Shown here in pieces: positions 50,438 through 55,913 of a stretch of 64,000 nucleotides of DNA. The stretch comes from Pseudochelatococcus lubricantis. GTDB taxonomy: Bacteria > Pseudomonadota > Alphaproteobacteria > Rhizobiales > Beijerinckiaceae. Under the pieces are notes generated by a model. The model saw only the letters and a list, made by a program, of their open reading frames with translations, was not told the DNA's origin and searched no databases. The stretch's first letter is position 1, and every line of letters begins with the position of its first letter. The position numbers and the translations under genes are program-made. The stretch lies in contig NZ_JAASQI010000001.1 in assembly GCF_011762225.1 (NCBI RefSeq), positions 62,001-126,000 on the forward strand, read 5' to 3'.

Positions 50438-52165
50438 TTACTCGGCCGGCACCGGTGCCAGCCCGCCCTCGTCCGCGCGGGGCGTCGGGGCCTGCTGCCG
50501 GGCCGCGCGCGCCAGCACGCTCTGCCGGTTCACGGACTTGCGTTCGGCGTCGATGCGGTGGATGAGCAGCTCCGCGCGCTCGATGGAGCCGAGCAGCGCG
50601 AGGATGGTGCCGCGTTCGCCCGCTCCGGCGTTGGGGCCGAGCGCCAGCGTGCGGGCACGCAATTCATCGACCCCGGGGAACGTGACGTGGCCTGCCGGCA
50701 TCTGCGGATCGGCGATGCCGTAGTCGGGCAGGATCTCGCGCAGCGAGTAGTCGAGCTTGTCGAGGGCGACGTCGACGATCGCCTGCGCCTTGTCCGAGAA
50801 CTTCTCACGCTTCACGCGGCGCGCCACCTGATGCATCGACTCGGTAAGGGCGGCGGTGAAGTCCGCCTCCTCGATCAGGCTGGCGATGAGGTCGAGCTGC
50901 TCGTAGGGCAGATCCTCCTTCATCAGCGCCGCCGTGTAGGCGCGGATGTCGCGGCTCAGGATATCCGTCGCGAGGTAGTGCTCGCCCGGATCGGACGGCG
51001 CGTTCTTCTTGCCGCGCGCGATGTCGAGGAACAGGGCACCGGCCTGCAGGTGGCGGGCGGTTTCCTGCTCCACCGCGGGAACGGCGCGGGCGAAGTCGTC
51101 AGCCACAGCGCGGTTGAGGAACTTCGGCGTGGAGTAATCCTCCACATCCTCGTCGTCCGTATGGCCGACACGCAGGAGAACACGTTCGAACACGCCCACG
51201 AAGGGGAAAAGCAGCAGCGTGTTGAAGATGTTGAACACCGTCGAGTACAGACCCACCGCGACCGGCACCAGCGGGAAGGTCTCCTTGCCGCCGACCAGAA
51301 CCGGAACCGCAGGATCGCCACCGAACCACTGCATGCCCCAGCGCAGCACCTCGATGGAGACGAAGAACAGCGGCACCGTGATACAGACGCCGATGAGATT
51401 GAAGGATATATGGGCGTAAGCGGCACGCTTGGCGTTCTTGGACAGGTTGATCGAGGCCATCCACGAAGTGATCGTGGTGCCGAGATCCGCGCCGAGCGAG
51501 AAGGCGACGGCCGTCTTCCAGTCCAGGATGCCGGCGGCGCCGAGGCCCATCACGATGCCGATGGTCGCCGACGAGGAGTGGATCAGCGCCGTGATACCGG
51601 CGGCGATCAACACGCACTTGATGAGGTTGATGTACGAGTCGGCCTGCAGCGTGGAAAGCAGCGCCATGACTTCCGGCATGTTGCGCAGGGGGCGCAGGCC
51701 GCCGGTCATCAGGTTGAGGCCGTAGAAGATCAGCGCGAAGCCCATGGCCGACAGCGCGATGTTACGCACTTTCTCGTTCTTCGAGAAGCAGTAGACGAGC
51801 GCGAAGAAGCCGGAGAAGACGAGCCCGAGCGGCCCGAGCGGCAGCGCGATGAGGCCGTTGCCGAGCGTGGTGCCGATGTTGGCGCCCATGATCACGCTGA
51901 TGGCGGGTCGCAGCGCGACGACGCCGGCGTTGACGAGACCGACCACCATCACCGTCATCGCCGTGGACGACTGGATGACGCCCGTGATCAGCGTACCCGC
52001 CATGACGCCCTTGATCGGCGTACCCGCGGCCTTGGCGAGGAACTCGCGCATCCGGTTGACGGAAAGGGCCTGAATGCCGTTCGACATGAATTCGAGGCCC
52101 AGCATGAACAGCCCGAGGCCGCCGATGACAGGGACAAGAATGTCCTTGAAGATATCAATATCCAT
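50438..52165 (-). CDS. Na+/phosphate cotransporter (NptA/PhoU-domain type)
   Basis: The 575-residue membrane protein has the two inverted NptA repeats, each with a QSS-like motif (GVIQSSTAMTVMVVGL near residues 60-75 and ALIHSSSATIGIVMGL near 210-225), about eight spans in the first 380 residues and a C-terminal PhoU-like helical domain. It imports phosphate, or in some bacteria exports it, coupled to sodium. It follows pstS by 29 bp in the same direction. ATG 52165 was chosen over an in-frame start eight codons upstream, because the family begins near IFKDILVPVIGGLGLF. Confidence 0.92.
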   Translation of the reverse strand: MDIDIFKDILVPVIGGLGLFMLGLEFMSNGIQALSVNRMREFLAKAAGTPIKGVMAGTLITGVIQSSTAMTVMVVGLVNAGVVALRPAISVIMGANIGTTLGNGLIALPLGPLGLVFSGFFALVYCFSKNEKVRNIALSAMGFALIFYGLNLMTGGLRPLRNMPEVMALLSTLQADSYINLIKCVLIAAGITALIHSSSATIGIVMGLGAAGILDWKTAVAFSLGADLGTTITSWMASINLSKNAKRAAYAHISFNLIGVCITVPLFFVSIEVLRWGMQWFGGDPAVPVLVGGKETFPLVPVAVGLYSTVFNIFNTLLLFPFVGVFERVLLRVGHTDDEDVEDYSTPKFLNRAVADDFARAVPAVEQETARHLQAGALFLDIARGKKNAPSDPGEHYLATDILSRDIRAYTAALMKEDLPYEQLDLIASLIEEADFTAALTESMHQVARRVKREKFSDKAQAIVDVALDKLDYSLREILPDYGIADPQMPAGHVTFPGVDELRARTLALGPNAGAGERGTILALLGSIERAELLIHRIDAERKSVNRQSVLARAARQQAPTPRADEGGLAPVPAE

Positions 52166-52194
52166 AGTTACGCCATCCCCAGAAGGCACCGCGA

Positions 52195-53289
52195 TCAGCT
52201 TCGCGTGCGCAGTTCCTCGACCCAGTATTGCTTGATCCGCTCCACGAGCGGCGCCGGAAGCGGTACGTAGCCAAGCGCGCGCGCATCCTCGCCGCCCTTG
52301 TCGAAGGCCAGGCGGAAGAAGTCATGCACGCGGCCATAGCGGCCCGCCGAACGCCGGGCGACCGGCACGATCGCGAAGGTCGCGGCCGTGATCGGATAGG
52401 CGTTCTCGCCGGTACGGTTGGTCAGCGCCGCGTAGAAGTCCCGCGTCTGCGACCAGTCGACGGAGTCGATGGCAGCCTGGAAGCCGTCGGGCCCGGGCGC
52501 GACGAAGCGGCCGGAAGCGTTCTCGATGGACGCGAAGGGCATGCTCGTACGCGCGACCTGCCCAAACTCGGCATAGGCGATGGCGCCCTTGGTCGCCTGC
52601 ACGCTGCGGATAAGGTCCTGCGTGCCTTCAGCGCCCTTGCCGGCCGGCCAGGCGATCAGCGTATCCGCGCCCAGGCGCTCGCGCCATTCCGGGCTGACCG
52701 CCGACAGGTATTCGGTGAAGGCGAAGGTCGAGCCCGAGCCGTCCTTGCGGTAAACGACGGTGATCGGCAGATCGGGCAGGCCGAGCCCCGGATTGGCCGC
52801 CGCGATGGCCGGGTTTTTCCACGTCGTCACCCGGCCCAGATAGATGTCCGCCAGCACCGGCCCAGGCAGGCGCAGCTCGCCCACCCTCACGCCGTCGAGG
52901 TTGACGACGACGGCGATGCCGCCCAGGACGAACGGAAACTGCTGGTGGCCGCGCCGCGCAAGCTCCTCGGGCTCGACGGGCACGTCGCTCGCGGCGAAAT
53001 CGAGTTCGGGCTGCTCAAGGCGCATGAGGCCCGCGAGCGACCCAACCAGTTCGTAATCGACCGTCCAGTCGGGAGAAACGAAGTCGCCGCCGTCAGCGCG
53101 CGCCTCGCTGTATGCCCGCGCCCAGCGGGCGATGACGGGCGCGGCGAAAGTCGACCCCGCGCCACGTATCGGCTCTGCACGGACCTCCCCGACAGCCAGA
53201 ACCGTCACGAAAGAAAACACAGAAAAGCATATCGCCGCCACGAGCCCGAATGCCCGGGCAGCGACGGCAGGCTTGGCATATCCAGCCAT
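52195..53289 (-). CDS. pstS: Phosphate-binding protein PstS
   Basis: The 364-residue periplasmic protein has a signal peptide (hydrophobic FGLVAAICFSVFSFVTVLAV, cleavage near VRAEP), then the PstS hallmark IRGAGSTFAAPVIARWARAY, a phosphate-loop segment DFAASDVPV, and VYRKDGSGSTFAFTEYLSAVS near residue 175. The pstCAB genes are not here; instead a Na/Pi cotransporter gene follows. The ATG at 53289 gives a proper signal peptide, whereas the open frame extends 26 codons upstream. No clear Pho box was found in the 240-bp upstream region, which does contain an A+T-rich palindrome-like TTATAGTTATTATAA. Confidence 0.93.
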   Translation of the reverse strand: MAGYAKPAVAARAFGLVAAICFSVFSFVTVLAVGEVRAEPIRGAGSTFAAPVIARWARAYSEARADGGDFVSPDWTVDYELVGSLAGLMRLEQPELDFAASDVPVEPEELARRGHQQFPFVLGGIAVVVNLDGVRVGELRLPGPVLADIYLGRVTTWKNPAIAAANPGLGLPDLPITVVYRKDGSGSTFAFTEYLSAVSPEWRERLGADTLIAWPAGKGAEGTQDLIRSVQATKGAIAYAEFGQVARTSMPFASIENASGRFVAPGPDGFQAAIDSVDWSQTRDFYAALTNRTGENAYPITAATFAIVPVARRSAGRYGRVHDFFRLAFDKGGEDARALGYVPLPAPLVERIKQYWVEELRTRS

Positions 53290-53529
53290 GATCCATCTCA
53301 CATTATGTGTTGCGCGCCCCGAATCCGGCGCGCCGCTTGTCGGCGCCCGGTTACGGCATACACACACCCGCAGACGGCCAGCTTATAGTTATTATAAACT
53401 GGCTGGCCGGACAGCCGGGCAGAGACGTCGTCTCGTTTATTCTCTTAAAACGGCGACTTAACAATTGTGTGTCAAGTCAACATGCTGCCGGCATAATTTT
53501 GCAGACGCAATAAAAGGCGGCACAAAACC

Positions 53530-55884
53530 TTATTTCGCGGCGATGGATACCGGTATCTCGTCGCCCTCTTCCTGCTGGCGCAGTTCCTGAAGCGTCCTGA
53601 TGACCAGTTCGTAGCCTTCTTTCTGGTTCGCGCGGATGCCCATGTCGGAGAAGTCGTAGTCGCGCGAGGACGGTTCGCCGGGCGTGCCGACGCGCAGGAA
53701 ACGGATGATCTTCATCGGCGCGCCGTCGCCCATGAGCTGGATGTAGTAGGGGCGCTGGCGGATGCGGGCGGCGGTTTCCTCCTCCACGTGGCTGAGCACG
53801 TGTTCGATGAGCCCGCGATAGGCGCTGACAACCTCACGGATGCGGATGTCGTTGCGCACCCGCTCCGAATAGATGATCTCGCTCAGGCGCGAGCGCACTT
53901 CCATCATGTTTTGCGGCAAGGGCTTGCTGGACGCGAACAGATCGACAGCGTAGACGCGCTTGCCGTCCGGGCCGCAGCGGTCGAGAACGATATCGAGCGG
54001 CGAATTGCTGATGATGCCGCCGTCCCAATACGCTTTTCCATCGATCTCCGTCCACGGAAAGCTCGGAGGCAGACTGCCGCTGGCGAGGATATGGTCCGGC
54101 GTCATGTCGTCCACGTAGCTGTCGAAGATTTCCAGCTCGGCGGTGTTGACGTTGACGGCGCTCACGAGCAGCCGCACCGGGCTGTCCTTCAGCGCGGAGA
54201 AATCCACATACTTGCGCAGCAGGGACTTCATCGGCGACGTGTCGTAGTAGCTCGTCCAGTTGAAGGGCAGCGTCATCGGGTCGTACACGGGCGGCAGCCA
54301 GCGCGGGCGGAAAAAGCTCGGCACGCCGAAAGCCAGAATCTGCAGCGACACCGCCGTGCGGCGCGCGTCGTCCGGCAGGAGGCGCGGCGCGTCCACGGTG
54401 AGATCCTTCCAGAACGCCTCCAGCGCGCGGGTCGGATCTTTCGGATTGCCGGCGATCACCGCGCCGTTGATCGCGCCGATGGACACGCCCGCCACGATAT
54501 CCGGATAGATGCCGTGCTCCTCAAGCCCCTTGATCACGCCCGTCTCGAATGCGCCGAGCGCGCCGCCTCCCTGCAGCACGAACACGTTCTGGGTGGGAAT
54601 GTCGTCGAGCGCGACGGAGGCGTCCGCGATGCGCTCCTTGCGGTCCGCGACGTTGACGCGATAGCGGATCAGCCCCTCGGCCGTGCGCGTCTCGCTCGCG
54701 GGGCGACCCATGGAGAAATAGCCCTGCACCACGCCGTTGCGGAGATAGAACAACGAGTAGGAGCGCGCATCGAGGCTTCCGCGCTCGATCCATTCGTCCG
54801 CCTCCTCCGAGACGCCGAGCGCGCTGAAGCTGAGTTCCCCAACCTCGCAGAAGAAGTACGACACCTGTTCGTAGCGCTGGCGCTTGCCCAGCATGTTGCG
54901 CGCCGCGATGCGCCCCTGCCGCATGGCGTTGTCGGCATGCTCGATGTGGCGCTTGGAGCGGAAAACGGGATCGTAGAAGGTGGTGACGTCGCCGGCGGAA
55001 TAGATGCCGGGGACGTTGGTCGCCATGAACTCGTTCACCAGCACGCGGCCGTTCTCCAACGCGATGTCGGTGCCGCGCAGGAAGGATGTCGCCGGGTCGA
55101 CGCCAATGCTGGCAATCACCATCTCAGCCGGAATGGTGCGGCCCTCGCGGGTAACCACCGACTGCACGTGCTCGTCGCCCTCGATGCTGACGACCTCGTC
55201 ATAGAAATGGAAGGTCAGCCCTTTCGACTCCGCGAAGGCGCGGAAGTAGGCCGACAATTGCGCCGATTCGAGGTGGGTCAGCACCTTGTCGCCGCGCTCC
55301 ACCACCGTGACCTTGAGGCCGAGGTGGTGAAGCGACATGGCGATTTCCATGCCGAGGAAGCTGCCGCCCATGACGACGGCGGTCTTCGCCTTCGCCGCCG
55401 CGCGACGGATGGCCTCGCCCTCGCTGCGCCGGCGCAGCCAGAAGACGCCCGCCCGCTCCCAGCCGGGGATGCGCAGCGGCTTCGGCTTCGCTCCCGTGGC
55501 GATCAGCAGCTTGTCATAGCCGATCACCTGCCCGGTATTCGTGACGATGAACTTGCCCGAAGCGTTGAGCGTCACCGCCGTGGTGTTCAGCGCCAGCAGG
55601 ATGTCCTGCTCCGCGTAGAACTTCTCGGGGAATATCTGCAGTTTCGAGGGATCCTGTTCCTGCACCAGATATTCCTTGGACAGGAACGGGCGATAGTAGG
55701 GCGAGATGCTTTCCTCGGAGAGGATCAGGATTTTTCCCTTGGCGCCTTCATGTCGAAGGGTCTCGGCGGCGGTTGCGCTGGCGAGGCCGCCCCCCAGCAG
55801 GAGATAATCCACTTGCGTTATCGCCATCTCTTCCGCCGCCTTGTCTTGAGGGATTTCCGGGAACGAGACGTCCCGAACGATCAA
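53530..55884 (-). CDS. Fusion of pyridine nucleotide-disulfide-type FAD oxidoreductase and patatin-like phospholipase
   Basis: The 784-residue protein joins two normally separate enzymes. Residues ~20-420 form a FAD/NAD oxidoreductase of the ferredoxin/rubredoxin reductase type: FAD motif YLLLGGGLASATAAETL near 27-43, NAD motif VVMGGSFLGMEIAMSL near 170-185, and GIYSAGDVTTF near 290. Residues ~455-784 form a patatin: oxyanion loop GGGALGAFETG, nucleophile Ser468 in GVSIG, catalytic Asp621 in YWDGGIISN. No signal peptide or membrane span is evident. An in-frame join without stop or frameshift suggests a real fusion, presumably coupling lipid hydrolysis with redox at the membrane. Start ATG 55884 has GAAGG in the arm of a palindrome upstream. 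Confidence 0.88.
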   Translation of the reverse strand: MIVRDVSFPEIPQDKAAEEMAITQVDYLLLGGGLASATAAETLRHEGAKGKILILSEESISPYYRPFLSKEYLVQEQDPSKLQIFPEKFYAEQDILLALNTTAVTLNASGKFIVTNTGQVIGYDKLLIATGAKPKPLRIPGWERAGVFWLRRRSEGEAIRRAAAKAKTAVVMGGSFLGMEIAMSLHHLGLKVTVVERGDKVLTHLESAQLSAYFRAFAESKGLTFHFYDEVVSIEGDEHVQSVVTREGRTIPAEMVIASIGVDPATSFLRGTDIALENGRVLVNEFMATNVPGIYSAGDVTTFYDPVFRSKRHIEHADNAMRQGRIAARNMLGKRQRYEQVSYFFCEVGELSFSALGVSEEADEWIERGSLDARSYSLFYLRNGVVQGYFSMGRPASETRTAEGLIRYRVNVADRKERIADASVALDDIPTQNVFVLQGGGALGAFETGVIKGLEEHGIYPDIVAGVSIGAINGAVIAGNPKDPTRALEAFWKDLTVDAPRLLPDDARRTAVSLQILAFGVPSFFRPRWLPPVYDPMTLPFNWTSYYDTSPMKSLLRKYVDFSALKDSPVRLLVSAVNVNTAELEIFDSYVDDMTPDHILASGSLPPSFPWTEIDGKAYWDGGIISNSPLDIVLDRCGPDGKRVYAVDLFASSKPLPQNMMEVRSRLSEIIYSERVRNDIRIREVVSAYRGLIEHVLSHVEEETAARIRQRPYYIQLMGDGAPMKIIRFLRVGTPGEPSSRDYDFSDMGIRANQKEGYELVIRTLQELRQQEEGDEIPVSIAAK

Positions 55885-55898
55885 TTCATTCTATAACA

Positions 55899-55913
55899 CC
55901 TTCACTGTGAAGG
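55899..55913 (-). promoter_or_regulatory. Palindrome covering the ribosome binding site of the FAD-patatin gene
   Basis: CCTTCAC-T-GTGAAGG is a perfect 7-bp inverted repeat with one central base. Its minus-strand 3' arm contains the GAAGG that serves as SD for the FAD-patatin ATG. It could be an operator or an RNA hairpin occluding the SD. Confidence 0.5.

Follow-up and report, generated by a model that had tools for sequence, protein, structure and literature searches.

A flavin module fused to a patatin-DUF3734 hydrolase in Pseudochelatococcus lubricantis, with a possible role in PHB mobilisation

In the 64,000-nucleotide stretch of Pseudochelatococcus lubricantis DNA analysed here (the window), a single uninterrupted frame of 784 codons (53530-55884, minus strand) joins a FAD- and NAD(H)-binding module to a patatin-type serine hydrolase. 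The fusion is conserved in other proteobacteria, and genes of the polyhydroxybutyrate (PHB) cycle lie beside some of its homologues. We propose, with roughly even confidence, that the protein is a two-part PHB-mobilising enzyme, in which a patatin-DUF3734 hydrolase is combined with an AIF/BphA4-type NAD(H)-binding FAD module that oxidises or senses NADH. Features of the gene are as follows, with Pfam scores set against their cut-offs:

53530..55884, minus strand: fusion gene as listed, TTG start, 784 amino acids (open frame)
54913..55809, minus strand: Pyr_redox_2, the FAD/NAD(H)-binding half, residues 26-324 (PF07992, 199.4 bits against 26.1, E = 1.1e-58)
54601..54855, minus strand: Reductase_C, residues 344-428 (PF14759, 27.6 bits against 25)
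53986..54579, minus strand: Patatin domain, residues 436-633 (PF01734, 114.8 bits against 27.7, E = 7.3e-33)
53566..53877, minus strand: DUF3734, residues 670-773, also a domain of unfused adc/bdh-linked patatins (PF12536, 68.5 bits against 22, E = 7.1e-19)
54481-54483, minus strand: codon of Ser468, the serine of patatin GVSIG
54022-54024, minus strand: codon of Asp621, the aspartate of patatin DGG
55891..55913, minus strand: candidate promoter-like stretch CTTCAC-N10-TTATAG, read by sequence, overlapping a 15-base palindrome at 55899-55913

From N- to C-terminus the domains follow in the order Pyr_redox_2, Reductase_C, Patatin and DUF3734, all above their cut-offs. One open frame with four Pfam domains thus bears out the sequence-only reading, which had described a single-chain fusion of a FAD/NAD oxidoreductase with a patatin. 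Translation probably begins downstream of the listed TTG, at the ATG at 55827 (codon 20 of the listed frame), which would give 765 amino acids. This codon is preferred because both congeners carry an ATG at the equivalent site; it is followed there by MAxTxVxxLLLGGG, and the residues upstream of it differ. Several more distant fusions in an alignment of 11 also start near this position. A stretch similar to the candidate promoter, CTTCAC-N10-(T/C)TATAA, recurs 5' of the fusion in both congeners (L025, L026) despite different neighbouring genes.

Both halves had been credited with their catalytic signatures, and for the hydrolase this holds as stated: Ser468 (GVSIG) and Asp621 (DGG) are invariant in all 11 aligned fusions (15 are known), and the window's protein also has the Gly-rich oxyanion loop GGGALG. 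The two dinucleotide motifs of the flavin half, GGGLAS and GGSFLG, depart from the textbook GxGxxG; the serine at position 36 is common to 9 of the 11 sequences and that at 175 to 10. Nucleotide-binding glycines and Gly298-Asp299 are invariant in all 11. Lys70 and Trp317 correspond, as we understand BphA4 and AIF work, to the conserved lysine and tryptophan near flavin and nicotinamide. The window's protein has Lys70, and position 317 is Ala instead of Trp in its genus. Lys70 is missing in L018 and in three of four Legionella fusions, Trp317 in the window's genus and in Legionella; Legionella flavin halves also lack the IGV motif and have a four-residue gap. Judged from the alignment, the Legionella changes and Trp317Ala would weaken a purely catalytic redox reading and appear no harder to reconcile with sensing or docking than with catalysis. 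AlphaFold output (six sequences; mean pLDDT 53.9, pTM 0.38, long stretches of the patatin half below 50) was too poor to judge interdomain contacts.

Full-length fusions occupy 15 loci, the window included, in Alpha-, Beta- and Gammaproteobacteria. All three genomes examined of the window's genus, its own among them, carry one. The Roseovarius pacificus fusion is 56% identical to the window's protein and those of four Legionella/Fluoribacter genomes 45-46%. Five fusions are plasmid-borne: in Xanthobacter autotrophicus Py2, Sphingopyxis indica and Tardibacter (about 58% identity), Variovorax (44.5%) and Cupriavidus (46%). Two more come from a genome of the same class (G650) and one of the same phylum (G939). 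The fusion is rare: a search at E 1e-100 found it in 1 of 297 genomes of the order, and searches at E 1e-140 found it in 2 of 385 genomes at class level and in 2 of 398 at phylum level, all counts including the own genome. Given such strict thresholds and two to three candidates scored per genome, diverged fusions could be missed. With the flavin half as query, the top five matches in the plasmid collection are the five fusions (39.6-54.2% identity), and the next ones, among the best 40 of 620 records, reach at most 36.2%. The 29 loci examined around unfused flavin relatives lack any patatin match, and the 22 around unfused patatins lack any match to the flavin half. Scanning viral contigs yielded no confirmed relative, and the phage collection gave one partial match of 25% to the flavin half.

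Both halves are under purifying selection, the hydrolase half more tightly. Among the three congeners, NG86 estimates of dN/dS range from 0.149 to 0.203 for the flavin half and from 0.090 to 0.136 for the patatin half, the latter computed with the last 12 alignment columns omitted. The patatin half is also better conserved in the pairs compared; between the window and Legionella it is 52-55% identical, the flavin half 38-40%.

To estimate the history of the two halves, separate trees were constructed. In the flavin tree the 15 fused halves are united in one group, apart from the 30 other rows (support 100/99). The 15 fused patatin halves likewise form one group against 18 unfused ones in an unrooted tree (100/100), rebuilt after 4 of 22 unfused rows had been dropped: L031, L043 and L048 for long branches, and L042 as second copy of a row from the own genome (L029). 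In the first patatin tree, which held the very distant row L031, the fused group was supported by 75/95. Nearest among the sampled unfused flavin relatives are L083 and L102, which join the fused halves to the exclusion of the remaining 28 rows (99/97) and have Pyr_redox_2 with an N-terminal Rieske domain. The trees fit a single fusion event and later transfer between classes. Since the fused patatin halves are 34-40% identical to unfused DUF3734 patatins and form a separate group, their substrate may differ. The trees conflict mildly at one point: Variovorax L017 stands with L018 and L028 by its patatin half and with L027 by its flavin half. Forcing L017, L018 and L028 together on the flavin data gave p-AU 0.025 for a group chosen post hoc and with long branches. 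Because the tested group was defined from the trees and its branches are long, a domain swap at L017 is not claimed.

Gene neighbourhoods provide the main indication of function. In Sphingopyxis pMC4 and Tardibacter pHSL1 the gene order is acetoacetate decarboxylase (adc), fusion, 3-hydroxybutyrate dehydrogenase (bdh), and the frames of fusion and bdh overlap by 4 bases. An annotated phasin gene lies 1-3 kb upstream in both plasmids; the one tested (L015) had no Pfam or NCBIfam match. In Cupriavidus and G939 a PHB depolymerase gene stands back to back with the fusion (349.1 and 330.1 bits against the NCBIfam cut-off of 300.75). Of the 15 fusion loci, just 4, including two close relatives, thus have a clear adc/bdh or PhaZ neighbour, and 2 have adc/bdh specifically; no clear PHB gene adjoins the fusion in the Roseovarius, Xanthobacter, G650 or Legionella loci.

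Unfused DUF3734 patatins tend to share this context. Homologues of adc and bdh both adjoin them in all four plasmid loci opened (84 records were found). The class scan detected DUF3734 in 15 of 142 genomes, own genome included. Outside the own genome, an adc or bdh homologue lies within about 1.5 kb on either side in 10 of 15 unfused loci, and in three of these the bdh match reaches only 38-40% identity; L036, L039, L041, L048 and L046, which is at a contig end, have none there. In the two plasmids where it lies in the adc/bdh slot, the fusion therefore stands where a lone patatin stands elsewhere. L. steelei carries both the fusion (L010) and a separate bdhA-patatin-adc cluster (L104).

Several further features were observed around these genes. 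In Legionella sp. 515359 the sequence about 7.6 kb downstream of the fusion includes a PhaZ-like stretch (L013:17842-18240), 36% identical to Cupriavidus PhaZ and cut by the end of the locus. In Roseovarius pacificus (L009:10404-15825) the next frames on the fusion's strand encode FtsH, another patatin-like protein, one with DUF6781 and one resembling UbiB, the patatin-like and UbiB-like assignments being made by eye. A gene with a cytochrome b/b6 domain, another redox part, is inserted between adc and the bdh homologue in a Ponticoccus patatin cluster (L062:6041-8211). The Xanthobacter plasmid encodes a DUF3141 protein (L014:2205-4103; 673 bits) about 4.9 kb upstream of the fusion, and one congener hydrolase near the fusion gives a weak DUF3141 match. 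The congener hydrolases near the fusion were considered as PHB depolymerases, having passed Pfam PHB_depo_C with 33.6 and 31.1 against 27 bits. They were rejected and left out of the neighbour count because L025 falls far below the NCBIfam cut-offs (PhaZ, 59.8 against 300.75; PhaC, 108 against 365.3). A Variovorax neighbour tried as acetoacetate-CoA ligase scores as acetate-CoA ligase.

The window's own locus is different. A PstS-like protein of the PBP superfamily and a Na/Pi cotransporter are encoded next to the fusion, with DUF6522 and an M29 peptidase at its opposite flank, and no adc, bdh, phaZ or phasin homologue was found in the 64 kb at E 1e-8. Given this setting of genes for phosphate uptake, DUF6522 and peptidase, the PHB role of this copy would have to be transferred from the gene context of homologues. 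PHB depolymerase-family genes and bdhA score above cut-off elsewhere in the own genome, so the PHB pathway seems to be present. In the congeners the fusion lies at another locus (porin, coaD, gyrA; no phosphate genes beside it), and the genes that match those flanking it in the window are on other contigs; the gene has therefore moved within the genus. The window's stretch 50438-53367 also has a parallel on a Shinella plasmid (L061:123-6035), where the Na/Pi cotransporter (86% identical) and PstS (57%) lie beside a bdh-adc-patatin cluster, which may hint at a link between phosphate supply and PHB use.

From these data a working model can be drawn. BdhA oxidises released 3-hydroxybutyrate with production of NADH, and PHB breakdown thus feeds the NADH of the cell; AIF is a protein that forms stable NADH complexes. 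The patatin-DUF3734 half would be a serine hydrolase (Ser468/Asp621) of the kind accompanying adc and bdhA, and most likely would act at the granule, cleaving PHB or oligomers of 3-hydroxybutyrate, or else lipid of the granule surface. The flavin half would be an AIF/BphA4-type FAD module that binds NAD(H). Since BdhA makes NADH, this half would either reoxidise it, with a presumed acceptor taking the electrons, or hold it in a stable complex, as AIF does, and signal the NADH/NAD+ ratio to the hydrolase. Such coupling between the halves is our inference. More specifically, NADH made by BdhA might reduce or occupy the AIF-like half and so switch the patatin half on the same chain, with breakdown tuned by NADH/NAD+ and no separate regulator; we consider a redox-gated depolymerase of this kind a speculative version of the model, and a rather unlikely one.

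Published work on patatins is in line with the proposed substrate. A bdhA-patD mutant of L. pneumophila is reported as defective in PHB breakdown (PMC4549902), and Haloferax PhaZh1 is described as a patatin-like PHA depolymerase that acts on granules and is encoded near bdhA (PMC11205408); deletion of the Haloferax depolymerase gene is said there to have no significant effect in vivo (PMC11205408). In Synechocystis, the patatin-domain protein Slr0060 is reported to copurify with PHB granules and has been suggested to be a depolymerase (PMC7203880). PatD, PhaZh1 and Slr0060 are likened to the fusion here on the basis of such descriptions. By transfer from such bdhA-linked patatins reported in PHB breakdown, the patatin half of the fusion should act in PHB mobilisation.

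Redox chemistry coupled with phospholipid turnover was the role suggested by the sequence-only reading. The patatin half would then act on membranes, freeing fatty acids or lysophospholipids, while a lipid-bound product or a partner would be reduced by the flavin half. Patatin fold itself speaks for this, as do the closest solved sequence, PlpD (E 3.3e-13), which we take to be a phospholipase, an annotated phospholipase A gene near the fusion in Sphingopyxis, and the phosphate-uptake genes in the window, since phospholipid turnover under phosphate stress is plausible. Homologues nevertheless occupy the adc/bdh slot or adjoin PhaZ, and the congeners have no phosphate genes beside the fusion. 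The role in phospholipid turnover is thus not the best supported one, as neighbourhoods of fused and unfused homologues point to PHB mobilisation, and we regard it as improbable, though deserving some weight. We judge equally improbable a flavin half with a chiefly structural or NAD(H)-sensing role, its electron transfer lost or being lost, and a hydrolase half that alone is catalytic. The better conservation and lower dN/dS of the patatin half and the absence of Lys70 (L018, three of four Legionella) and Trp317 (window's genus, Legionella) agree with such a state, which is also compatible with the sensing branch of the PHB model. It is countered by the glycines and Gly298-Asp299 invariant in 11 of 11 fusions and by purifying selection on the flavin half.

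That the flavin half serves as ferredoxin reductase for a ring-hydroxylating dioxygenase, like BphA4, HcaD and AndAa, seems very unlikely. Top NCBIfam models are of this kind and dioxygenase genes lie 2-3 kb downstream in the two Sphingomonadaceae plasmids (of Sphingopyxis and Tardibacter), but all equivalog cut-offs among the models listed are missed (HcaD, 221 against 450 bits; AndAa, 199.8 against 650), and those plasmids carry a separate dioxygenase ferredoxin and reductase, the latter grouping elsewhere in the tree. An assembly or frameshift artefact joining two genes, for which no supporting point was found, deserves practically no belief. A stop between the halves, or homologues with the domains only in separate genes, had been named as grounds for doubt; instead, the whole fusion occurs at 14 other loci in other genomes and plasmids with no inner stop, and each half forms one group. 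The artefact is already refuted by these homologues.

The sequence-only reading knew no characterised enzyme of this type, and our open-literature searches agree with it, having found no paper on a flavoenzyme-patatin fusion, a patatin/FAD-oxidoreductase architecture or DUF3734. The combination of Pyr_redox_2 and patatin may already be listed in InterPro. Both parts of the fusion are known kinds, and it is the link of the PHB store to redox state through the fusion that seems unstudied; a direct molecular connection of a PHB hydrolase to the NADH level is not known to us. The fusion, which may tie this bioplastic store to the redox state of the cell, would give such a link in concrete and testable form. 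The same slot holds a lone patatin in many clusters and the flavin-patatin fusion in few, a natural comparison, and one purified protein suffices for a test. The analysis also reveals a hydrolase half in proteins that the records opened annotate merely as FAD-dependent or pyridine nucleotide-disulphide oxidoreductases.

Among known systems, unfused DUF3734 patatins of patatin/adc/bdh clusters are closest to the hydrolase half. They share Patatin and DUF3734 with the fusion, which holds their gene slot in two plasmids, but they have no flavin half and form a separate tree group. PatD of the L. pneumophila bdhA-patD operon, taken here as a DUF3734 patatin, is likened to them by description. The same applies to PhaZh1 of Haloferax mediterranei, patatin-like, located near bdhA and said in the cited passages to act on PHA granules; according to these passages it is unfused, unlike the window's protein.

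Rieske-FAD proteins L083 and L102 share the Pyr_redox_2 fold and group with the fused flavin halves. They contain a Rieske domain and no patatin, whereas the fusion contains a patatin and has no Rieske match in Pfam; we assume that they are AIFM3-like. The best solved relatives are ferredoxin reductases of the BphA4, HcaD and putidaredoxin-reductase type (3fg2, E 2e-51; 3lxd, E 5.6e-50). Reductase_C is common to them and the fusion, which differs by its fused hydrolase, by the missed equivalog cut-offs and, in the window's genus, by the replacement of Trp317 by Ala.
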